Shown: piece by piece, positions 1-63,438 of the stretch
Layout of the letters: every line of letters begins with the position of its first letter
Position numbering within the stretch: the first letter of the stretch is position 1
NCBI RefSeq assembly: GCF_014279995.1
Contig: NZ_CP047935.1
Location: 965,243-1,029,242, forward strand
Source of the DNA: Synechococcus sp. BIOS-E4-1
GTDB taxonomy: Bacteria > Cyanobacteriota > Cyanobacteriia > PCC-6307 > Cyanobiaceae
Direction of reading: 5' to 3'
Length of the DNA: 64,000 bases
Position numbers and translations under genes: made by a program
Notes under the pieces: model-generated
Database searches by the model: none
Told to the model about the DNA's origin: nothing
Seen by the model: only the letters and a program-made list of their open reading frames with translations

Positions 1-1016
1 AATAAAGATCAAGCTTGCGATTTTTGTGGGAGAATTGAGAATCGATACATTAACAATACCTTTGGCCTTAGATTGTTCTAGTTCATTTTTCATCTGATTT
101 CGGCTGCTTCTCTAGGGGATAGCTCTTTTCCTTTCGTGCGCTTTATCGCAGGAACAATCTCTACGCCTACAAGCCTGATCTGTTCTCCAAGCTTCAAGCT
201 GAGCATTTATAAAGAATAGATTTGCATGATGCTACCGAGCTGATTAGCCCAAGTCAACCAATTGTTTTGGATCTTGCACCTCCCTCCGTGTGCATGATTT
301 GCTATTGGTTAACGATTTGATTGCTTTTGCCGTGAGGCCAGTTTTCATGATTGATGGCCTCTCTTTGAACCGTTTGATGCCTGGAGTCCCTGTCCTTTTG
401 TCCTTCATCCTGCCAGCCTTGATGTATTCTTTCTTTGCTGTCGCTTGGCACGGGTTTATCAGTTGCTGATCAATGGTCTTGAGTTCATTGAAAACACAAT
501 TGAGTGCCCACCGTCACACCAATCAATGTCATCATACTGGCACTGAATGATTCATCACTGAAGCATTGATTTGCTGTATGTTGTCTCAAGTGAGGCCTTG
601 AAGATCTCCGTTTTGTGATTCCCTACCTCTGGTCATGAGGAATTAGTTTGATGTTCCTTCTGCTGCAAGCTGGACCTTCAATCGCATCAGTCTTGCATCA
701 CGACTAGCAAAGGTTTGAACCTTAGCCTCACTTTTTTGATTATCGAACATAGACTTTTATGGAATTTCATACTTTTTTCGTGCCTTCACCATCGATTGAT
801 TCGCCTGATTGAATGCCAAAACAACTGGGTTGCTATTCACATTATCCGAACACTACAACGTGAATCCTTTCTGCTCCGCCGCGCTGAGATAGGAGAGTGT
901 ATTTCTTCTGATGATCAGCACCCGAATGAATCACGATGTCTTGAACCAATGGGTGGAAGGTTCATTGCGTTCATCTTTATCTGATTTGGAGTTCTAGCTA
1001 CGCCTGGCCTCATTGC
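1..1016. other. Stretch with no supportable gene
   Basis: This is an AT-richer stretch with frequent stops in all frames. An open frame at 715-984 on the + strand has neither a recognisable motif nor the G/C-ending codon bias of nearby genes, so I do not call it. No tRNA-like fold, terminator or repeat was recognised. It may be eroded intergenic DNA of the kind seen elsewhere in this window next to accessory genes. Confidence 0.5.
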
Positions 1017-11345: not shown

Positions 11346-11573
11346 TCAGTCTGTGCTGCCGGGCGGTCGGATTCCCAGGGCACTGCGGCTGAACCAGCTC
11401 TCCAGGGTCGATGCCTGATGATCCTCGATCAGATCGGCACGATTGATGGCGAAGTCGAGACTTCTTGCCAGGGAAACAATCTCAGCGTCATCTGAACATC
11501 CATGCAGTTGTCGTCTGAGCGATGCACTGTGTTCGAGCGCATGAACAAAGGCGCTCAATGCTTCTCTGCTCAT
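11346..11573 (-). CDS. Nif11-domain small protein, 75 aa
   Basis: The segment MSREALSAFVHALEHSASLR, the following acidic link and SLDFAINRADL match the Nif11 domain, known as the leader of many cyanobacterial RiPP precursors but also as a free-standing small protein. There is no Gly-Gly cleavage site and no Cys-rich core (one Cys only), so a peptide precursor role is unlikely. The ATG overlaps the petJ stop by four bases (ATGA), which implies translational coupling to cytochrome c6. The C-terminus (WFSRSALGIRPPGS) is short and polar. Function is unknown. Confidence 0.75.
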   Translation of the reverse strand: MSREALSAFVHALEHSASLRRQLHGCSDDAEIVSLARSLDFAINRADLIEDHQASTLESWFSRSALGIRPPGSTD

Positions 11574-11932
11574 CGTGACCAACCCTTTTCGGCCTGATTC
11601 TCCACGAATGCAGCCACATCATCGATGTCCGTAAGACTCAGTTTTCCTTCGTAGGAAGGCATCGCATTTTTACCGTTCTCGATCTGGTGTTCGATGGCTT
11701 CAATCGGATGCTGGCTGTAGGAGTCGAGATAGGCCTGCAGGTCGGTCTGACTGAGCGTGCGACTGGCGCGGATGACATTGCCGCCACCCATATGACAAGC
11801 AGCACAGTTGCTGGAGAACAGCTGGGCGCCATGGGACAGGTCTGGTTCAGCGATTGCTCTGACAGGCAGAGCCGCCCCGAAACTCAGGCAGATGCTGAGG
11901 ATCAGTGCCAGTGCAGAAGCAGGGTTTGGCAT
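11570..11932 (-). CDS. petJ: Cytochrome c6, photosynthetic electron carrier
   Basis: Cytochrome c6 carries electrons in the thylakoid lumen from the cytochrome b6f complex to photosystem I, replacing plastocyanin when copper is short. The 120 residues have a signal peptide (to about 28), the haem-binding CAACH at 43-47 and a likely axial Met at 91 in NAMPSYEG. Length matches the family. It lies beside petE on the same strand, but the petE terminator separates the two, so they are regulated apart, as expected for interchangeable carriers. The downstream Nif11 gene overlaps its stop. Confidence 0.93.
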   Translation of the reverse strand: MPNPASALALILSICLSFGAALPVRAIAEPDLSHGAQLFSSNCAACHMGGGNVIRASRTLSQTDLQAYLDSYSQHPIEAIEHQIENGKNAMPSYEGKLSLTDIDDVAAFVENQAEKGWSR

Positions 11933-53398: not shown

Positions 53399-54220
53399 TC
53401 AATCACTTTCTTTAATGTCTCTGATTTCCACCCAGTGGCAGATCGGTCCCTGACCCTGTCCGATGGCCAGGGCCTGCTTCAGGCCTCGTTTGACGTACTC
53501 CCGCGCCCGCGCAATCGCCTCTTCGAGATCCTGGCCAAGAGCAAGTCCTGCGGTGACGGCTGCTGACAGCGTGCAGCCTGTGCCGTGGGTATGTGGCGTG
53601 TCCACCCACGTGCCTTCCTCAAGCCAGTGGGGTTGGCCGTTGAACAGCAGATCACGGCCACCCTGGGATCGATCACTGCCGCTTTTGATCAGAACCGCCG
53701 CAGGGCCCTGGGCGTGGATGATGGCGGCCGCTTTCTCGGTGTCACTGTCGTTGTTCAACTCATGGCCGCTGAGCAGTCGGGCTTCATGGCGATTCGGGGT
53801 GAGCAGGGTTGCCAGCGGCAGGAGATTTTGGCGAAGCGCCGCGATCGCGTCAGCTTCAAGCAGTACTGCACCGGTGCGGCTCACCATCACAGGGTCGATC
53901 ACCTTGGGGATGGTCCAGTGCCGTAACAGCTCAGCAGTGGTTTGAATCAGTTCGGCATTCAGCAGCATCCCGGTTTTCAGTGCATCGACAGCCAGGTCGT
54001 TCTGGATGGCTTGCAGCTGTGCTTCCAGGCCTGCGGGCGGAATTGGATCAACCCGGTCGACTCCACAGGTGTTTTGTGCGGTGACGCATGAGAGAGCGCT
54101 GCAGCCGTGCACCCGGAAGGCCATAAAGGCGCGCAGATCAGCCTGGATTCCAGCCCCTCCTCCTGAATCGCTTCCCGCGATGGTGAGGGCGATCGGTGGA
54201 GTGATGTGATGGGCCTTCAT
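53399..54220 (-). CDS. thiD: Hydroxymethylpyrimidine (phosphate) kinase
   Basis: ThiD phosphorylates hydroxymethylpyrimidine twice for thiamine synthesis. The 273 residues begin [20 protein letters not shown] (substrate loop) and end with the ATP-side motif [20 protein letters not shown] near 215. Length is normal. Its ATG shares one base with the nth stop, so the two are co-translated. Confidence 0.95.
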
Positions 54221-54876
54221 CAGGGTTTACGCCAGATCACCGGCTTGCGGCGTTTGGGATAGAGCTCTCGGCATAGCTTGCAGACCGTGCCATCGCAGCC
54301 GCGAGCCGTGCAGTGCTCGCGGCCGTAGAAAATGATCTGCAGGTGCAGTCGATTCCAGTGCTCCCTGGGGAAGAGAGCCTTGAGATCAGCTTCTGTTTTC
54401 ACAACGCTGTCGCCCTTGCTCAACCCCCAGCGTTGGGCCAGACGATGAATGTGGGTGTCCACGGGGAAGGCGGGAACGCCGAAGGCCTGCGCCATCACCA
54501 CGCTGGCGGTTTTGTGACCGACACCCGGAAGCGCTTCAAGCTCTTCAAAACTCTGTGGCACCGCTCCGCCGTGGACATTCACCAGGATGTGGGCCAGTTT
54601 GTGCACATTGCGCGCTTTGGTTTTCGCCAGTCCCAGCTGACGGATGTGGCTGTGGATCTCTGTTTCGTCGAGCGCTGCCATGGCAGCGGGCGTCGGTCCA
54701 GCGGAAAACAGTGCTGGAGTGACTTCGTTCACTTTCTTGTCGGTGCACTGGGCACTGAGCAGAACGGCGATCAGCAGCGTGAAGGCATCGCTGTGATCCA
54801 GGGGAATCGGCGTCTCGGGGTAGTGCTCGTTCATCCGATCGAGGATCACTCTGGCCCGTTCGCCCTTATTCATCAC
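54220..54876 (-). CDS. nth: Endonuclease III (DNA glycosylase/AP lyase)
   Basis: Nth removes oxidised pyrimidines and nicks the DNA. The 218 residues hold the helix-hairpin-helix LEALPGVGHKTASVVMAQA (catalytic Lys near 120) and VDTHIHRLAQRW (catalytic Asp near 138). The C-terminal cluster region reads CTARGCDGTVCKLC: four Cys, but not in the standard C-x6-C-x2-C-x5-C spacing of the 4Fe-4S cluster. The rest matches the family, so the enzyme is probably active with an unusual cluster loop. Divergent from the 68-residue gene. Confidence 0.94.
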   Translation of the reverse strand: MMNKGERARVILDRMNEHYPETPIPLDHSDAFTLLIAVLLSAQCTDKKVNEVTPALFSAGPTPAAMAALDETEIHSHIRQLGLAKTKARNVHKLAHILVNVHGGAVPQSFEELEALPGVGHKTASVVMAQAFGVPAFPVDTHIHRLAQRWGLSKGDSVVKTEADLKALFPREHWNRLHLQIIFYGREHCTARGCDGTVCKLCRELYPKRRKPVIWRKP

Positions 54877-54951
54877 GTTCTGGGATCGACAGCCATAATT
54901 GCAGCGCCGTGCCTGGGATGAGAGATTGGCAGAGGTTCGAACTGTGGGTTC

Positions 54952-55158
54952 ATGAACTCTGAAAAGCGCCGAACCGGTTCTGATTCAAGCGACGCCTACG
55001 CACGGGCTGTTCGCAGGGAAGAGCAGCAACAGGAGCGTGAGCAGCAGCAGCATCCTGATGACGACAAAATTGAAAAGAATGCTGAAATCACTGAGATTGA
55101 TGACGCCAGTGATCTTTTTCGTCAGCACAGCCATCAGCAATCGATGGAGGGTGGGTAG
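54952..55158 (+). CDS. Small Gln/Glu-rich hypothetical protein, 68 aa
   Basis: A highly charged, low-complexity protein: MNSEKRRTGSDSSDAYARAV, a central Glu/Gln run (VRREEQQQEREQQQ), then an acidic part and the end HQQSMEGG. It is probably disordered or coiled. Its last codons lie in the repeat at 55130-55207, whose second copy (55942-56019) keeps the same HQSMEGG-stop reading, so this gene end was duplicated. No family is recognised. Confidence 0.6.
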   Translation: MNSEKRRTGSDSSDAYARAVRREEQQQEREQQQHPDDDKIEKNAEITEIDDASDLFRQHSHQQSMEGG

Positions 55159-55207
55159 CAACGATTTAACAAAATATCTCTGCGGCTGTTTCTTAATTAC
55201 CTTCAAA
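55130..55207 (+). repeat. Direct repeat copy 1 flanking the precursor gene
   Basis: A 78-base segment that covers the end of the 68-residue gene and the bases after its stop. Copy 2 lies at 55942-56019 in the same orientation, with 68 of 78 positions identical and no gap in my hand alignment. The most conserved part is the non-coding AACAAAATATCTCTGCGGCT block. Confidence 0.85.
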
Positions 55208-55295
55208 AGCCAGCAGCATTAATCTTAAATAAATACATGCTTTTGCATTGCTCCTTTCGCTTGCAATAAAGTCAATACGATGCTATCTATTAAAG

Positions 55296-55625
55296 ATGAC
55301 TTCACCAATAGAGGATCTACTCGCTCATCTTGAAGCCAATCCCGAAGTGCGTAACGCAATTATAACGGCAACTACACTCGAAGAAGCGACTGAAATTGCG
55401 GAAAATGCTGGATTCAAAATTGACGCGAAAGATCTATGCAATGCTCATAAAGATGAACTCTTAGAATTATCTGATGAGGAATTAGAAGTTATTGCAGGTG
55501 GAAAGTATACAGCCACCCCTGGTCAACCCCCGGGCACCACCCAAGGCTGTCCCGGGACCGCACATACGCTCGATATTGCTCATGGTGAGAAGTGTGGTCA
55601 ATCACCTTTGTCTTCTGCTCCATAA
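55296..55625 (+). CDS. Prochlorosin-like lanthipeptide precursor (Nif11 leader)
   Basis: A 109-residue ribosomal peptide precursor. Residues 1-69 are a Nif11-type leader: PIEDLLAHLEANPEVRNAII, then EIAENAGFKIDAKDL and the terminal ELSDEELEVIAGG with the Gly-Gly site at 68-69. The 40-residue core carries Thr at 72, 74, 81, 82, 88 and 91, Cys at 85 and 100, and Ser at 103, 106 and 107, suited to dehydration and thioether ring formation. This is the pattern of ProcA peptides of marine Synechococcus and Prochlorococcus, which a single ProcM enzyme modifies in trans. No modifying enzyme or transporter is in the window. The ATG at 55296 starts the leader; upstream residues do not fit. Another Nif11-type RiPP class is the alternative. 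Confidence 0.82.
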   Translation: MTSPIEDLLAHLEANPEVRNAIITATTLEEATEIAENAGFKIDAKDLCNAHKDELLELSDEELEVIAGGKYTATPGQPPGTTQGCPGTAHTLDIAHGEKCGQSPLSSAP

Positions 55626-55759
55626 CAATTCGGCATTCCTTAAAAAGTCAAAGGCAAGACTTGGTCATGGGTTGAGCAACTCTTTCCACGATTGATTATG
55701 CTCTGATAGCCTTCTACAAGCGGCTACAGTAGGCATCAACAACTCTTCAGAGGTGCTAG

Positions 55760-55901
55760 CTAGCTATCACTAACACTCTCTGAGGGGTCTTCAAGGGCAG
55801 GTAGTGCCTGGTTAACGCTTCTGCGAACCACTCTCGGTGTTGCCTCAGGTGCGGCGGCTTATGAATTAGCTTATAGATACAAAACAGCACCGCTGAGATA
55901 G
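55760..55901 (+). pseudogene. Open frame without a start, possible gene remnant
   Basis: After an in-frame stop at 55757-55759 the frame is open for 46 codons with no ATG, GTG or TTG: it reads LAITNTLSEGSSRAGSAW, then a hydrophobic LGVASGAAAYELAYRY and ends TAPLR. The Gly/Ala-rich end resembles the tail of a secreted or membrane peptide. It lies between the precursor gene and repeat copy 2, so it may be the worn remains of a duplicated neighbour. Weak support. Confidence 0.25.
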
Positions 55902-55941
55902 CCTGTAAACACTAGCTTCTGAGTTTGTCCATTTGATGGCT

Positions 55942-56019
55942 GCAATCATCAATCGATGGAAGGTGGGTAACGGTGGATTAACAAAATATCTCTGCGGCTG
56001 TTGCTTAATTACCTTCAAA
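55942..56019 (+). repeat. Direct repeat copy 2 flanking the precursor gene
   Basis: Copy of the segment at 55130-55207. It retains the HQSMEGG-stop reading of the 68-residue gene's end without the rest of the gene, so it is a remnant of a duplication. The surroundings (55626-56202) otherwise hold no gene beyond the possible remnant at 55760-55901. Confidence 0.85.
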
Positions 56020-56202: not shown

Positions 56203-59200
56203 ATGAGTTTCGTTATCCCCGAACTCGCTGAGCTGACCAAAATTGATGCCAACCAAGGCGACATCCCTATTTATTACGACAAAGAAGGTCATGTTTACCT
56301 TTGGCCTGCCGGTGAAAGTATTCCCATTCCTCTCAAGGACCGCACTGGTGATGAGTGGCCTACACGCCTCTTTGAAGAATGGGATAGTGGAAATAAGTTT
56401 CATAAGGTTCATTCAGTTCAAAAAGATGGTGATAGCTATCAGGTTGTTATTCATGAAAATCACGGCGATGGAGTCGCTTGGGGCATCATCCCCGCATCGT
56501 CCTCAGGAATCCTGAGTTGGAAATCGTCGTTATTTTCTGAAAACGTTGGCGAGATCGAAGAGCGTGTCAAACTTGACTTAAACAAAGACGGCAAAACCGG
56601 GATTGTTGTTGAAGTTACCCCCAAAACCGATGATGTTGGTGATGTCGTCCTGGCGGTGAATTCCGATGGCGATAGCTATATCAAGGACAAAGAAAATGTT
56701 TTGAAGCTGAAAGATTTTGAAGGTAATGGCCTTCGATTTGATTTCGACCAGAAGAATTCTGATGGTTCGGGCTTTGAGCGAGAAGCGGTGCAGGCAGCCT
56801 GGGATTCTGAAGCCAAGCAATATGTGGTTGCCATTGAAGAAACATTTACATCAACCTGGGAAGGCAAAAGCTATTCGGACACGGAATGGGTGATCAACGC
56901 ATTTAATGAGAATGGAGGGAGCGTCGGTCAAGATCTCTTCAATGTCGATATCGTTAATTACGAAAAGGTCTTTAACTATGATTTCAATGGTGATAAATCA
57001 ATTGGTTTTGATAACAGCGCCCTCGAGAAAATCACTGCCGATACTTCGTCAGATTCGGGCGTTACTGTCAAGCGATTTAAAGGTAATGGTGATATTTATA
57101 TCGTTGACAACGGAGCCACGAAAAAGGTTGCAGATGAATATGGTTTCGCTTTAGAGCTTGAAAGAGAAGAGCGTTGGGAGGGTGGTTCGTCATCTTCCGT
57201 TGTGGTCGCAGCCGAAGGAACAGCGAATGGCGGCTATGTTCTTGTCGTCAAGCATCAGGAAACGCACAGCGGCGGTGAGGATGAACAAGGATCCCGTGAG
57301 GAAAATGCAACCACGCTTAAGACATCTGCGGAGTCTCAATCTCAGTTAAGTGGATCTGATCCTGAAGTATCACTCGCTTCAACATCTCATTCTGGATTTA
57401 ATTCAGCTCACAATATTATTGAACGATCAAAAAATGCAGATACGATAATCTCCACTGACTACAATTCGGCTTATGCGCTTGCAACAAGCTTCACAGGTGC
57501 ATTGGAAGATGATATTTTAATCACATTCGAGGAAGATAACGGATGGTTGAATGTCAATGGTTCTTATAGCGGTGGATTTGTCAGTCATGATCATCAATAT
57601 TTAGCTGGCACATCATCGCCATACAGCAGTTTCAGTCCAGCATCATCGTCTTCAGCCACAGGCCGCACAACCTTAGTGGCTGCTGATGCAAAGGGCGATC
57701 ATGCCAACGGAACGGCAGAGGGCACGATTGAATATATTGTTGCGAATGGCGGTGAATTCGACGGCAATCGAGTTCACTTCAATCTGAGTAATGTTGGCCA
57801 CAGTGGTGGACCTGATGAACCTGATCTTGCCCGTATCAACTCGGGCTCAAATATTGATCGAGGCATCAATATTACGCAAGGCTTTAATACTACAACTACA
57901 CCTCCTGAACCAAGAGATCAATTTCTTGAAGTGTTGCCAAGCGAGCTAGAAGAAGGTGGACTAAATGTTTATTTTTATGGCAACGAAGCAGCTTCTGGAG
58001 ATGCATTCAATAACCCAGTCTCTGCGTTTGGCTTTTACTTGATGGGTCGTGAAATCAAGAGAGATGTTTTTCTTGATGTCAGAGATACATCAAATTCCCT
58101 CATTCATTCCACGGTCACAACGGTTCCAGGTGATGCGAGCCAGGCAGTTGTTGAATATATTTCATTTCAAGCTGCTGAAGACCAGGCTGTTTCTTCATTC
58201 TCCCTTCGTGAAGCCTTTAATTCTTCAATTGATACTGCTAGTGCTCGTGATATCTTCAGCATTGATAATTTAAGTCTTAAATTTGCGGTTGATGGTGAAG
58301 AGGGTGGCAACAGCGAAGAAGGTGAGGATGAAGAAGAGCAAACTTCCACATATTATGAGATTTACAATTTAGACAAGGATGGCAAATCAAGCTGGTCAAA
58401 TCCATCCTTTTTCACCGAAAGCATTGCAGGTTTTGAATCAGTTGTTAAGGAAGATATTAATAAAGATGGCAAAATTGGCATTGATGTTTCAAGTTTAACG
58501 CAGCTCACTACAGATACTGCCGGCATTGAGCTGTGGAAATCAACAGCCAATACAGTCCATATTGTTGATCCAACTACAAAAAAGCAAGTTGATGTTAAAG
58601 ATCAAAGTGGAGGTTTCCCGACAGTTTTTGTTGACGAAAAATGGGATAATGGGTATTTCAGGATCACACCCATAGCAGCTTCTCTGTGGGATGGAGGGTC
58701 GTCAGACGATTATTATCGTGTAGCCGTGAAAGTTGAAGATGCCTATTTTGAGAATTCAACGGATAAGACACCTACGACGAGTCGCGTTGAATGGGAAATC
58801 TATAAGGTTTCACTTGATGGAATTCTTGATACTTCCGGTACGATCTTTACCCCTTCAATTACAACCTACGAAGATGAATTTAAGCAAGATTTGAATGGAG
58901 ATAAGGACTTCTCTGGAAATATCGATATAGCTCTTCGTAATTCAGATACGTTCGGAGTCAAGCTAGGAGAAGCTGATGGTCAGATCTTTATTGTCGATGG
59001 TGAAAAACAAATTGCTATTCAGGATTCGTGGATTGAACATGAGGATAAATGGGAAGGTGGTAGCTCAAAAGCTGTCGTTAAGGCAGTCGAAAAAAATGAG
59101 GCTGGTCTCTATCAAGTTGCTGTCAAGCAAGACCATACCTGGACTGAACTCGATACTGGCAGGACTGGGCAAGATAGCGGTTGGCAAGTGTATGCAATCA

Positions 59201-62200
59201 AAGAGGATGGATCGGTTGATTTCTCTAAAACCATTTGGTCAGATTCGATTACCCCCTTTGAAACATCACTATTCAAACAAGATGTTAACCAAGATGAATT
59301 TGTAGGGGTTAACACTGGAAAGCTTGAGCGCTCTTCTCGAGATAAGAATGGACACTATTTGAAAAAGGATATTGACGGCTTGCTCTATGTCTTCACACCA
59401 GACGACAAACTTGAGTTTGCCGTTACCAATGAATTCAATGAGTTTCCTTCATTTGACTTTTCTGGCAGCTGGGGAACGAGTAATGCCGTAGCTGTTGAGA
59501 AAAATGATGATAATTCTTACTCTCTAGCTGTTGAGCGTACGGAAAAGTATTCAGGTGACGTAGAAAAATTCTGGGAAGTTCTATCCCTGAGTTCCACTGG
59601 CGTGATCGGCGATTCGTCTTGGTCTAGCAGCATTGAAGCTAAGGAAACTACGATCTTTAAGGACGATTTGGATTTATCGGGCAGTATCGGCTTTAATCTC
59701 AGTCAATTGATCGATGTTGCGACGGATCTAGGTGATGTTCGTTTAAAGCGTAAGCAGGGAATCACAAACAATCGAGACCAGTTTTTTATTGAAGATTCAA
59801 CGGGTGGGGTTGTTGAAATCCTATATAGCTGGGGTGATTCTCCTGACTATACGGAACTCAATATTGAAGCTGATGTCACCTTCAGGCGTGATGCTGTAGC
59901 GGCAGAAAAAACAACATTAAATGGAAAGGATGTGTATGTTGTTGCTATCAAAGAATCTGAAATTAGAACGATTGATGGAGGTGAAAATGTTGATGTTCGC
60001 TGGAAGTTGGATTACGTTGACCTCAAGGGTTCTATCCTTGAGGAAGACTCTATTGAGACAGGCTCGATTCAGTCTTACGAATCAATTTTCAAGCATGATT
60101 TGGATAGTGATGACAAGGTTGGCTTAAATCTTGCTGGTTTGAGTGCAATCGGTACAGACAGTCAGGGTGTCTCCGTCAGTCGTAATGGTGATGCTATCTA
60201 TATCACTGATGACAATCTGACTTCTAATAAGACATTCCTCGTACAGGATTACTGGGGAGATACTCCTGATATTGAGTGGGGCGATGAGAACTCCAGTTCA
60301 AAATCCAGGGTTTATGCCGTGGAGTCGTTTGAGGATCCCCTCGATAAGATTAATAAGTATCTTCTGGTTGTTAAAAATGAAGAGATTTTTGAGGGAGACA
60401 CACCAACTGAGTCTTGGCAAACATTTAAAATTAAGGAAAAAAATGTAGGCCAGCAGGATTGGTATCTCGATTACAATTCAGCTACTACATCAAAGAGTGT
60501 TAGAAAAATTGAACCACTGATTAAGCAGGATCTAGATGGTGATAAGAATTTTGCGGTAATTAATCCAACTACCAAGCGAATCACCACGGATTTAAGCACG
60601 ACCGGTCAAACAGGCATCAGCTTGCTCGAAGATGCTAATGGCAAGGGTGGTTTATATCTCCAAAAAGGGGCCCAGATTACAGAAATTGTTGATCCCAACG
60701 GAGGTTCTGTTGATTTCGCTCCAATCAAATGGGGTGGTATCAAAAAAGAACAAAAAGCCTATGCCGCTGAGGCAGTACTGAAGGATGGAGATATTGCATC
60801 CTATAACCTGCTTGTTAAAGAAACTGAGACGGATTTAGCTGGCAACGTCACGACTAAATGGAACAACTATGAGGTCAGCAGACTTGGGGTTTTAGACCAA
60901 GCCAGTAAGAGGTCTAGCGACAACTCTGAATTGTTTGAAAAAGACCTCAATCAAGATCTCAGTGGTGATAGCAAAATCTTTAATCCCGATACCCTTACTC
61001 TTTCAGCCTTAACAACTGATTCTGGTGTTGACAAATTATATACCGATGATGCTAACCGTTTGTATGTTCAACTCAGTGGATCTAATACACGTCAGGCGCT
61101 TTTTGATAGTGACGGAGATGCTTTAGTTGTTGATGAGCGTTATGTAAAAGGCAACGCTACCATTAATAAAACTGCAATAGCGATCGAATCATTGCGTACT
61201 GTTGATACGCCGTTTCTTCGTCTGTTGGTTGAATCGAAGGAAACCACTGGTGAAGTGACTAAAAAAACATATGAGACATTTAATGTTAATCAGACAACTT
61301 TTGAAGCAGATCAATCGACAACCATCGTTCATTCCAATCTAAAGCCTCTAGAGATTGGCTTTAACATGGATCTTGACGATACCCCTGGTGTGTATTCCTA
61401 TAATCAGAAATCTGCTGTCAAGAAAAGCACGGATACTTATGGAGCAGAATTGAGATCTGTTGGCAATATTTTGTTTGTAACGGAAAAGACTGGGGGGCAA
61501 GAGACCACATATGACATTGTGGATAAAGCCTCTAGATTCAATGCTTCACTGGACGTTGAGAGTAAGGAAAGTGGCAAGCCGATCTTTAAAAAGGAAACAT
61601 TGGCGATTGAGAAGAAGTTAGATAAGAAGGACGAATATCGTTTGATCGTCAAGGAAACATCAACATTCAATTCTGAATCTGATGTTTCTTATTTGCAGTA
61701 CACCTTGGAAGAGGATAAAAAAACTAATTCTCTGCTGCTTGATAGATCCAGCATTGAGTTCCTAGCTGCAGGTGATATCGATGAAACAATGTATCAGGAA
61801 GACTTTAATGGGGATGGATCCAAGACAAGAGCTTCGACGAAATCCTCTACCCAAGGCTTGGTGAAAAAGGGTGCTGCAGTTAAGATCAAATCGGAATTTG
61901 AGTCGCGAGCCAACTCCGATTTTTCGACAATTAAGAGTGCATCTGATGCCACTGATGCTGCTGATATTGCGATATTTGGTTCTAAAACAAGTGCTGAATC
62001 TGCTGCGCGCAATGATATTCAGGTCAACGTTGCCAAGGACGTCTCCAGCCAAATGCTTGAGCAGGCCAAGAGTGATGCCGGTACAGCAAAGGTCAGCACA
62101 AGCACATCAAGTGCTTCAGAGTCAGTTGGTTCGACTTCAGCTTCAGCGAGCTCCAGCACATCTCAATCGAACAGCGATTCAACCTCTGCAGCCGTAAGTT

Positions 62201-63438
62201 CCCAGTCATCACAAGCTTCTAGTGGGTCTGCTTCAAGAGCAGTCAGCTCCCGATCATCACAAGTTTCTACTGGGTCTTCGCCAAGAGCAGCCAGCTCTAG
62301 CACGTCTCAACAACTTGGATCTGCATCTGAGGTGAAGATCAAGCCCCTAACAGATCTGCTCGACTTCAGTGTGACTTCAACTGATCCTTCCCAGTTTGGC
62401 CAGATCCAATCGGTTACAATCGTCCTCAATGATGTAGGAGCTGATGATGATGCTCCTATTTTCTACAAGAGGGATAAGTCGACAGGTGGCTTTGTTGCTT
62501 TTACATATGATGCCAATACTGGTGAGGGTGCTCTTTGGAATGCTCAAAATAAGACACTGACCATCAATGTGCGAGATAATGGCCGTTATGACTGGAATGA
62601 TCAGTTAGGTGTTATCCGAGATCCTGGTTTTGTTGGTTTAACTGTCCAATCATCGACGACTCCCACACCACCAACACCAACACCAAAAACAAAAACAAAA
62701 ACAAAAACAAAAACATCCTTATCGACATCTTCAACACCGCCTCCAATTCAATACCCTATTCCAACAGAGAATGGATATCTTATTTATAGCGATGCAGCTG
62801 ATTCGCTGAAGAATCAAAGGGATGTCAAGTTTCGGATGATGGGTGGGAGTGACACCGTCCAGATTATCGGAGGTAAAAACAACTTTGTGAACGGCAACCA
62901 GGGGGATGATCAGCTTATCGTTCTTGATTCCCAAGACAGTCAATTCCTGGGAGGCAAAGGGCGTGACCTGTTTGAGGTCAGAGGTGGCACAGATAATTAT
63001 TTTTATGGTGCGATTGGTGAGGATGTATTTAAACTGATTGCCGGTAAAAGTCATATTTCTGGTGGCGATGACAATGACACCATCGAAGTTCTTGGTGCTG
63101 TTGCTGGTACCTTTGTCAACGGTAACCGTGGCAATGATCTCATCACTGGAGTGGTTGCTGGTGTTACTTACAGAGGTGGTAAAGATGATGATCTCTTAGC
63201 TGTCTGCCAAGGCGATGTCTGGGGAGATTTAGGTGTTGATACTTTCCAGGGTGTTTCAGGTGATGGCTATGCAGTGGTTCGGGACTACACCGTTGGCGAG
63301 GACAAGATTGATCTTTCGATGGTGCAGGGGGAGAGTTGGAAAGCCGTTGACAACGGCTTGATGCTCACAGATTCTTCCGGTGATCAAATCATGCTGCTTG
63401 TTGGTATTGAAAGCGTTGATCAAGTTTCACTTGTTTAG
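56203..63438 (+). CDS. Giant repeat protein with calcium loops and RTX-like tail
   Basis: A 2411-residue acidic protein without signal peptide. EF-hand-like loops of the form DxNxDxxxG begin at about residues 125, 260, 751, 896, 1027, 1155, 1299, 1443, 1581, 1723 and 1867, roughly every 128-145 residues. Each is preceded by WxxYxxxxxG...E..F and followed by TDxxGV and WxGGSS...AVE. This recalls the cyanobacterial tryptophan-rich repeats (PF07483-type). Between loops 2 and 3 lies a different region (about 360-700). Residues 1955-2045 are Ser-rich, 2150-2185 Pro/Thr/Lys-rich, and the end (about 2215-2411) has RTX-like turns (NGNQGDD, GGKGRD, GGDDND) and DYTVGEDKIDLS. It is probably a type I-secreted surface or adhesion protein. 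Codons are AT-rich. Confidence 0.88.
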   Translation: MSFVIPELAELTKIDANQGDIPIYYDKEGHVYLWPAGESIPIPLKDRTGDEWPTRLFEEWDSGNKFHKVHSVQKDGDSYQVVIHENHGDGVAWGIIPASSSGILSWKSSLFSENVGEIEERVKLDLNKDGKTGIVVEVTPKTDDVGDVVLAVNSDGDSYIKDKENVLKLKDFEGNGLRFDFDQKNSDGSGFEREAVQAAWDSEAKQYVVAIEETFTSTWEGKSYSDTEWVINAFNENGGSVGQDLFNVDIVNYEKVFNYDFNGDKSIGFDNSALEKITADTSSDSGVTVKRFKGNGDIYIVDNGATKKVADEYGFALELEREERWEGGSSSSVVVAAEGTANGGYVLVVKHQETHSGGEDEQGSREENATTLKTSAESQSQLSGSDPEVSLASTSHSGFNSAHNIIERSKNADTIISTDYNSAYALATSFTGALEDDILITFEEDNGWLNVNGSYSGGFVSHDHQYLAGTSSPYSSFSPASSSSATGRTTLVAADAKGDHANGTAEGTIEYIVANGGEFDGNRVHFNLSNVGHSGGPDEPDLARINSGSNIDRGINITQGFNTTTTPPEPRDQFLEVLPSELEEGGLNVYFYGNEAASGDAFNNPVSAFGFYLMGREIKRDVFLDVRDTSNSLIHSTVTTVPGDASQAVVEYISFQAAEDQAVSSFSLREAFNSSIDTASARDIFSIDNLSLKFAVDGEEGGNSEEGEDEEEQTSTYYEIYNLDKDGKSSWSNPSFFTESIAGFESVVKEDINKDGKIGIDVSSLTQLTTDTAGIELWKSTANTVHIVDPTTKKQVDVKDQSGGFPTVFVDEKWDNGYFRITPIAASLWDGGSSDDYYRVAVKVEDAYFENSTDKTPTTSRVEWEIYKVSLDGILDTSGTIFTPSITTYEDEFKQDLNGDKDFSGNIDIALRNSDTFGVKLGEADGQIFIVDGEKQIAIQDSWIEHEDKWEGGSSKAVVKAVEKNEAGLYQVAVKQDHTWTELDTGRTGQDSGWQVYAIKEDGSVDFSKTIWSDSITPFETSLFKQDVNQDEFVGVNTGKLERSSRDKNGHYLKKDIDGLLYVFTPDDKLEFAVTNEFNEFPSFDFSGSWGTSNAVAVEKNDDNSYSLAVERTEKYSGDVEKFWEVLSLSSTGVIGDSSWSSSIEAKETTIFKDDLDLSGSIGFNLSQLIDVATDLGDVRLKRKQGITNNRDQFFIEDSTGGVVEILYSWGDSPDYTELNIEADVTFRRDAVAAEKTTLNGKDVYVVAIKESEIRTIDGGENVDVRWKLDYVDLKGSILEEDSIETGSIQSYESIFKHDLDSDDKVGLNLAGLSAIGTDSQGVSVSRNGDAIYITDDNLTSNKTFLVQDYWGDTPDIEWGDENSSSKSRVYAVESFEDPLDKINKYLLVVKNEEIFEGDTPTESWQTFKIKEKNVGQQDWYLDYNSATTSKSVRKIEPLIKQDLDGDKNFAVINPTTKRITTDLSTTGQTGISLLEDANGKGGLYLQKGAQITEIVDPNGGSVDFAPIKWGGIKKEQKAYAAEAVLKDGDIASYNLLVKETETDLAGNVTTKWNNYEVSRLGVLDQASKRSSDNSELFEKDLNQDLSGDSKIFNPDTLTLSALTTDSGVDKLYTDDANRLYVQLSGSNTRQALFDSDGDALVVDERYVKGNATINKTAIAIESLRTVDTPFLRLLVESKETTGEVTKKTYETFNVNQTTFEADQSTTIVHSNLKPLEIGFNMDLDDTPGVYSYNQKSAVKKSTDTYGAELRSVGNILFVTEKTGGQETTYDIVDKASRFNASLDVESKESGKPIFKKETLAIEKKLDKKDEYRLIVKETSTFNSESDVSYLQYTLEEDKKTNSLLLDRSSIEFLAAGDIDETMYQEDFNGDGSKTRASTKSSTQGLVKKGAAVKIKSEFESRANSDFSTIKSASDATDAADIAIFGSKTSAESAARNDIQVNVAKDVSSQMLEQAKSDAGTAKVSTSTSSASESVGSTSASASSSTSQSNSDSTSAAVSSQSSQASSGSASRAVSSRSSQVSTGSSPRAASSSTSQQLGSASEVKIKPLTDLLDFSVTSTDPSQFGQIQSVTIVLNDVGADDDAPIFYKRDKSTGGFVAFTYDANTGEGALWNAQNKTLTINVRDNGRYDWNDQLGVIRDPGFVGLTVQSSTTPTPPTPTPKTKTKTKTKTSLSTSSTPPPIQYPIPTENGYLIYSDAADSLKNQRDVKFRMMGGSDTVQIIGGKNNFVNGNQGDDQLIVLDSQDSQFLGGKGRDLFEVRGGTDNYFYGAIGEDVFKLIAGKSHISGGDDNDTIEVLGAVAGTFVNGNRGNDLITGVVAGVTYRGGKDDDLLAVCQGDVWGDLGVDTFQGVSGDGYAVVRDYTVGEDKIDLSMVQGESWKAVDNGLMLTDSSGDQIMLLVGIESVDQVSLV
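62206..62301 (+). repeat. Two 48-base repeats in the Ser-rich linker
   Basis: Two adjacent 48-base units encode SSQASSGSASRAVSSR and SSQVSTGSSPRAASSS. They differ by a few substitutions, some changing residues. They lie in the Ser-rich part of the giant protein, a likely flexible linker whose length can change by in-frame repeat gain or loss. Confidence 0.8.
62685..62714 (+). repeat. Five AAAAAC repeats encoding Lys-Thr
   Basis: Five perfect AAAAAC hexamers give five Lys-Thr pairs just before the RTX-like tail, following a (Thr-Pro)-rich run. A unit of six keeps the frame when copies slip, so the linker can vary in length without breaking the protein. Confidence 0.9.

Follow-up and report, generated by a model that had tools for sequence, protein, structure and literature searches.

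Organization of the precursor locus

The analysed window is a 64,000-bp stretch of the Synechococcus sp. BIOS-E4-1 genome (positions 965243–1029242 of the 3,314,220-bp single contig). It contains a short gene, hereafter the query, that encodes a Nif11-type leader followed by a core peptide. The features of the window are as follows (window coordinates).

1–93, minus strand: HlyD-like gene, 5′ end; its operon (TolC/ABC/C39-ABC/HlyD-like, genome 957808–965335) is a candidate exporter without an adjacent LanM
54220–54876, minus strand: endonuclease III-like ORF (named by eye)
55130–55207, plus strand: direct repeat, copy 1 (78 bp, 87%), ending where paralogue similarity begins
55206–55295, plus strand: upstream stretch, conserved in the nearest paralogue as part of an 80% match
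55296–55625, plus strand: precursor peptide gene, 109 aa, Nif11-type leader and core (ORF, Pfam and TIGR03798 matches)
55296–55502, plus strand: leader, residues 1–69, ending ELEVIAGG (TIGR03798, paralogue alignment, C39 consensus)
55503–55622, plus strand: core, residues 70–109, with Lys-1 and with Cys at positions 16 and 31 of the core (translation)
55942–56019, plus strand: second copy of the direct repeat, offset by 812 bp from the first

The query frame runs from the ATG at 55296 to the TAA at 55623–55625. An in-frame TTG at 55248, which would add 16 residues, was rejected as the start because a Met is invariant at ATG 55296 in the paralogue alignment. The leader begins with MTSPIEDLL and terminates in SDEELEVIAGG. 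The 40-residue core, KYTATPGQPPGTTQGCPGTAHTLDIAHGEKCGQSPLSSAP, contains nine Ser/Thr residues (six Thr and three Ser) and Cys residues at positions 85 and 100. The leader matches the leader_Nif11 family TIGR03798 at 40.9 bits (cut-off 32.3, E 1.8e-10), and Pfam Nif11 is matched at 26.1 bits (cut-off 23.8). The Nif11-type leader and the Thr/Ser-rich core with two Cys described in a sequence-only reading of the locus are thus both borne out. The leader carries the pattern L(−12)xxxE(−8)L(−7)xxxxxGG, which fits the C39 consensus quoted in a passage of PMC6363468.

The nearest paralogous proteins are 1283745 (74% over residues 1–85) and 1937506 (70% over residues 4–79). In the leader, dN/dS against these two paralogues is ∼0.18 (0.105/0.58; frame 1283724) and ∼0.12 (0.138/1.16; frame 1937464); these low ratios indicate purifying selection. 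Given the two family matches, the paralogues and the leader dN/dS, the frame is not a chance one, and the query is a real gene. Assignment as a non-RiPP Nif11 protein, which the sequence-only reading had named as the outcome that would speak against it, was rejected because the double Gly closing the leader is of the C39 type and the leader aligns along its entire length with like precursors.

The other neighbours of the query are a 68-aa ORF and a 2411-aa ORF, and no modifying enzyme was recognised among the neighbours, in agreement with the sequence-only reading. By eye, the 2411-aa ORF (window 56203–63438) contains segments that repeat and finishes in a glycine-rich, RTX-like stretch. Six relatives share the block 54200–55157, with its endonuclease III-like and 68-aa ORFs, in collinear order at 86–94% DNA identity. 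Past ∼55157, the six no longer follow the window; another ORF, of ∼125 aa, is common to three of them, and small ORFs recur. No match to the precursor stretch 55208–55941 was found in 29 foreign loci (flank of at most 1.5 kb each; one genome gave no locus). In genome G002, the 2411-aa gene is still present at its start (87%), separated from the block by the ∼125-aa ORF, so the intergenic site occupied by the precursor is a variable one. The comparison of the six relatives did not yield a clean empty site. In a DNA search, the 78-bp repeat occurs nowhere else in its own genome; the two copies bracketing the query fit an insertion or a duplication without proving either.

A conserved leader module ending at Lys-1

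DNA similarity between the query and its paralogues covers 55206–55506 (80%) and 55328–55504 (81%), with a third, weak match at 55463–55508 (78%, E 8e-4). All three matches end at the Lys-1 codon (55503–55505) or at most one codon away. The core and downstream DNA (55500–55941) have no second copy at E ≤ 0.01 among 31 genus genomes. Because similarity ends at the leader–core border and the core has no further copy in these genomes, the upstream stretch, leader and Lys-1 codon form a conserved module; the core attached to it was either exchanged or altered by abrupt divergence. Judged from this conservation, 55206–55295 is probably the promoter or 5′ region.

Precursor inventory of the genome

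Of 281 candidates in a family search, 150 were scored, and each of these exceeded the cut-off. A local profile search of the fetched stretches and the window identified 225 Nif11 frames (221 non-overlapping), 29 of which were dropped because they left the last Gly column empty or fell outside it. The remaining 196 frames comprise 14 class B frames, defined by a short leader motif (EDLL and variants), 160 class A frames, defined by a score over 75 bits, and 22 unclassed frames. For this strain, 143 SyncA precursors have been published, a number not directly comparable with the 196 frames, some of which are partial or broken. The frames are dispersed over the genome, consistent with the earlier expectation of scattered precursors. 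The label ‘orphan’ given to the query in the same reading does not stand, as the gene is one among ∼200 precursor-like frames. The window also contains, at 11349–11618 on the minus strand (genome 976591–976860), a weak Nif11-like frame whose leader does not end in Gly-Gly.

The start could be placed for 147 of the 182 non-class-B frames. A TGYTAYRA motif occurs within 120 bp upstream in 86 of these 147, exactly at −30 in 77, and this upstream module may be a common promoter. The motif is found in six of the 14 class B genes, and the upstream module of standard precursors was recognised by eye in four, one of them partial. For ten of the 14 class B genes, a non-B Nif11 frame is found no more than 1 kb away, against a random mean of 0.84 and a maximum of 5 in 2000 trials. 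The query is isolated, with its nearest non-B precursor frame 51 kb away.

Phage-type ORFs are found near class B genes at L236 4713–5876 and 10347–11039, L237 10544–11239, L128 1278–2483 and L234 15105–15809. The class B genes 1347752 and 1730946 each divergently adjoin a similar phage-head-like ORF, and an integrase-like ORF lies 5 kb from 1347752. The 945–949 kb cluster comes after a terminase-like ORF, and class B gene 1269447 lies ahead of a phage-type exonuclease ORF. Precursor genes may travel with prophage-like elements.

Class B constitutes a separate leader branch

The 14 class B leaders (the query and 13 others; alignment A1) share the consensus MSAIEDLLNxLxTNPELRQAITxATTxEEAVKIAADAGIxISxxDLxxAFKSKMSELSxEELEAVAGGK. 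All 14 match TIGR03798 at E ≤ 0.01. The NHLP leader family TIGR03793 is matched weakly by two of the 14 (best E 0.0021) and is absent from the families matched by the query at E ≤ 1. Against the A1 profile, the 14 genes score 109–123 bits and two genes of genome G024 score 107 and 97 bits, and the next hits among the 31 genus genomes, a truncated own copy and hits in other genomes, reach at most 54 bits. This score gap agrees with class membership as set by the motif. No class B gene of comparable score was found in the 29 other genus genomes (of the 31, 24 reach 90% completeness or more with contamination no higher than 5%). A draw of 201 genomes across the family gave no score above 68 bits except in the own genome; G024 was evidently not drawn, as it is not among the matches there. 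In viral contigs, 327 pattern matches for A1 were obtained and none was confirmed; phage and plasmid records yielded no copy of the query.

In a tree of 73 leaders, for which every third class A leader was taken, class B lies behind a long branch with support of 100/99. A distant long-branch sequence from G178 is placed inside class B, which stands alone on one side in 4% of the trees of a bootstrap that had not settled, so the strict monophyly of class B is left undemonstrated. The query groups with 1283724 and 1937464 (query as 1020475; support 84/87).

The end of the query leader, DEELEVIAGG, fits D/EELExxxGG, which PMC10783134 gives as the C-terminal motif of ProcA/SyncA leaders. The MTSPIEDLL start is not the MS/TEEQL of ProcA/SyncA, a start that the same source rates as only slightly conserved. 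The description of the query as prochlorosin-like, or ProcA-type, thus holds in part: the leader end, the CCG-type LanM enzymes of the genome (below) and the Ser/Thr and Cys core agree with it, and the leader start and grouping do not. The query leader falls outside the standard ProcA/SyncA leaders, on the separate branch. By alignment and tree, it is not of the standard type but belongs to a well-separated side-branch, new here. No description of this branch was found in the main text of PMC10783134 or the accessible text of PMC7522525, PMC6363468, PMC11667668, PMC9872173, PMC12328550 and PMC13060382, and a literature search with four class B leader strings returned only single-string matches in unrelated work.

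Class B cores are marked by Lys-1 and low Cys content

Lys occupies core position 1 in 13 of the 14 class B precursors, including the query, versus nine of the 160 class A precursors (Fisher 5e-13, uncorrected for relatedness). Both AAA and AAG encode it in class B. Cys is present in ten of the 14 class B cores compared with 151 of 160 class A cores (Fisher 0.013) and accounts for 3.5% and 11.8% of core residues, respectively; the mean core length is 28.6 residues in class B and 20.3 in class A. The Cys-free cores (four class B, nine class A) are represented in class B by 811589 (genome 811589–811909) and the subclade 1264255/1269447/1816908. All three members of the query subclade contain Cys, with Ser/Thr ahead of each. 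Some class B cores outside this subclade have the reverse order, with Cys preceding Ser/Thr; these may still be lanthipeptides, since SyncM is reported in a passage of PMC9872173 to form rings in the Cys-first direction.

Modification and export genes

The sequence-only reading had called for a genome search for LanM/ProcM and C39 homologues, and both kinds are present. A complete lack of LanM-type enzymes, the other outcome named there as speaking against the proposal, is thus not what the genome shows. The genome encodes two LanC-domain proteins, both full LanM enzymes (genome coordinates):

496472–499792: LanM1, close to a Nif11 precursor at 500407
2202991–2206374: LanM2, in a run with NHLM-type ABC, C39-ABC, HlyD-like and TolC-like ORFs

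LanM1 and LanM2 match TIGR03897 at 723 and 708 bits (cut-off 304), and both carry the WCHG and LCCG motifs. According to PMC10783134, the CCG motif marks ProcM-like enzymes. The NHLM-type ABC protein beside LanM2 matches under the equivalog cut-off, and the HlyD- and TolC-like ORFs of this run were named by eye. Three C39-domain matches, two strong and one weaker, exceed the cut-off in the genome; C39 domains lie at 963474 and at 2210303, the latter in the LanM2 gene run. Two YcaO proteins are also encoded.

Proposed maturation and alternative readings

Prochlorosins are a leading case of one promiscuous enzyme producing many ring peptides. We consider the query to be, with reasonable probability, a class II lanthipeptide precursor of a divergent leader branch that is modified in trans to carry one or two thioether rings. 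The RiPP-type leader with its double Gly, the two LanM enzymes, the C39 transporters and the dispersed precursors make this the best reading of the locus, and the proposal of a trans-modified lanthipeptide is retained without the terms ‘orphan’ and, in the strict sense, ‘ProcA family’. Further support comes from the TIGR03798 matches of all 14 class B leaders, from the position of class B genes among standard precursors, from the Ser/Thr-before-Cys order in the query subclade and from the selection on the leader. In the proposed route, one of the two ProcM-like LanM enzymes, both encoded far from the query, would bind the Nif11 leader and dehydrate Thr/Ser residues of the core. Cys-16 would then react with, most likely, Thr-12 or Thr-13 and Cys-31 with, most likely, Thr-19 or Thr-22, with one or two methyllanthionine rings as the outcome. 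Cleavage behind the Gly-Gly would be carried out by a C39-domain ABC exporter, which would export a peptide with an N-terminal Lys.

Several observations count against this reading. The Pfam Nif11 score of the query is 26 bits versus 54–75 bits for the 150 paralogues listed, and the query lacks the standard upstream module by eye and lies 51 kb from any non-B precursor frame. Lanthionines are impossible in the four class B cores without Cys, although nine class A cores have no Cys either. LanM chemistry also leaves Lys-1 unaccounted for. With a Lys-1 branch of Cys-poor and sometimes Cys-free cores, lanthionine chemistry is not deducible from the leader alone.

The query resembles the prochlorosins and synechococsins (ProcA/ProcM and SyncA/SyncM) in its Nif11 leader, D/EELExxxGG end, dispersed precursors, hypervariable Thr/Ser and Cys core and distant ProcM-like LanM with CCG. 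It differs in that the class B leader branches separately and does not begin with MS/TEEQL, Lys-1 is nearly invariant and the cores are longer, Cys-poor and partly Cys-free. The nostolysamides (NpuA/NpuM/NpuN, selidamide type), as described in parts of PMC13060382, share the Nif11 leader, a Gly-Gly followed by Lys-1, a class II LanM and a C39 exporter; unlike the query, which has no adjacent enzyme, NpuA has four Cys and lies in a cluster with LanM and GNAT genes. The query scores over the TIGR03798 cut-off, but this Nif11-like leader family is broad and leaves the chemistry unfixed.

The prevalence of Lys-1 and its use of both Lys codons, together with the Cys-free cores, would be explained if class B were a RiPP subfamily with a common Lys-1 modification, such as GNAT side-chain acylation, and with optional, Cys-dependent LanM rings. 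NpuA, a Nif11-leader class II lanthipeptide precursor, offers a precedent: according to the same parts of PMC13060382, it is acylated by a GNAT only at Lys-1, Lys-3 and Lys-24 cannot substitute for Lys-1, and the lanthionine synthetase is sometimes missing from related gene clusters. By this analogy, nostolysamide-like acylation is the boldest option for the role of Lys-1. Against a shared modification, neither a motif scan lacking a positive control (ORFs of at least 110 aa, mostly within 10 kb of class B genes) nor inspection by eye within 6.5 kb of them revealed a GNAT-like ORF. A 310-aa ORF at 812108, beside two class B genes, was suspected by eye to be a tandem GNAT, a reading that gained no support: it shows no internal repeat, and searches of Pfam, NCBIfam, PHROGs, PDB sequences and plasmids gave no match. 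We regard a common Lys-1 modification as unlikely.

The region L231 3337–10876 (genome 806336–813875), which adjoins the same two class B genes, also encodes a 2OG-Fe(II) oxygenase-like ORF (PF13759), a second oxygenase-like ORF whose match is weak, an Asp/Asn hydroxylase-like ORF (PF05118), a TPP enzyme and an amine-oxidase-like flavoprotein, alongside the unmatched 310-aa ORF. It is a possible tailoring cluster.

Somewhat less probable still is export of an unmodified, bacteriocin-like or signalling peptide, whose leader would serve the C39 exporter only and whose Lys-1 would suit cleavage or export. The LanM-less export-type operon at 957808–965335 adjoins the window, with NCBIfam matches that are clear yet below curated cut-offs, and bacteriocin leader families match the query weakly and under cut-off (e.g. 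the CTB family, E 0.00035). The operon has an identical make-up by eye in G024, G004 and G021, where its C39-ABC protein has orthologues of 68–86% identity; the next matches in the 31 genus genomes reach at most 40%. G004 and G021 have the exporter (68%) and no class B gene, their best A1 scores being 49 and 53 bits. A link between class B and this exporter therefore gains no support from co-occurrence. The ring-compatible spacing of Thr and Cys in the query subclade also argues against unmodified export. In G024, three similar ORFs with DLDELESVAGG lie beside another C39-ABC/HlyD-like set (L227 5888–7553), perhaps a further precursor type.

A broader proposal, in which class B is a separate RiPP family within the prochlorosin system that combines a leader–Lys module, swapped cores, a common Lys-1 modification, optional lanthionines and the LanM-less C39 exporter, is a speculative one that we hold to be rather improbable. 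That the query is a decaying or silent duplicate left by precursor gene spread, as its isolated position, the flanking 78-bp repeats, a −10-like box seemingly weaker by eye than that of the nearest paralogue and the truncated class B copy at 1723772 might suggest, is very improbable in view of its intact frame, leader dN/dS of ∼0.1–0.2 and conserved upstream region.

Class B offers a natural setting in which to separate the effects of leader and core on LanM recognition. A second leader branch in the same genome, with a nearly fixed Lys-1 and cores with or without Cys, would show whether the leader routes peptides to different enzymes or exporters. Precursor counts built on the standard leader possibly miss genes of the class B type.
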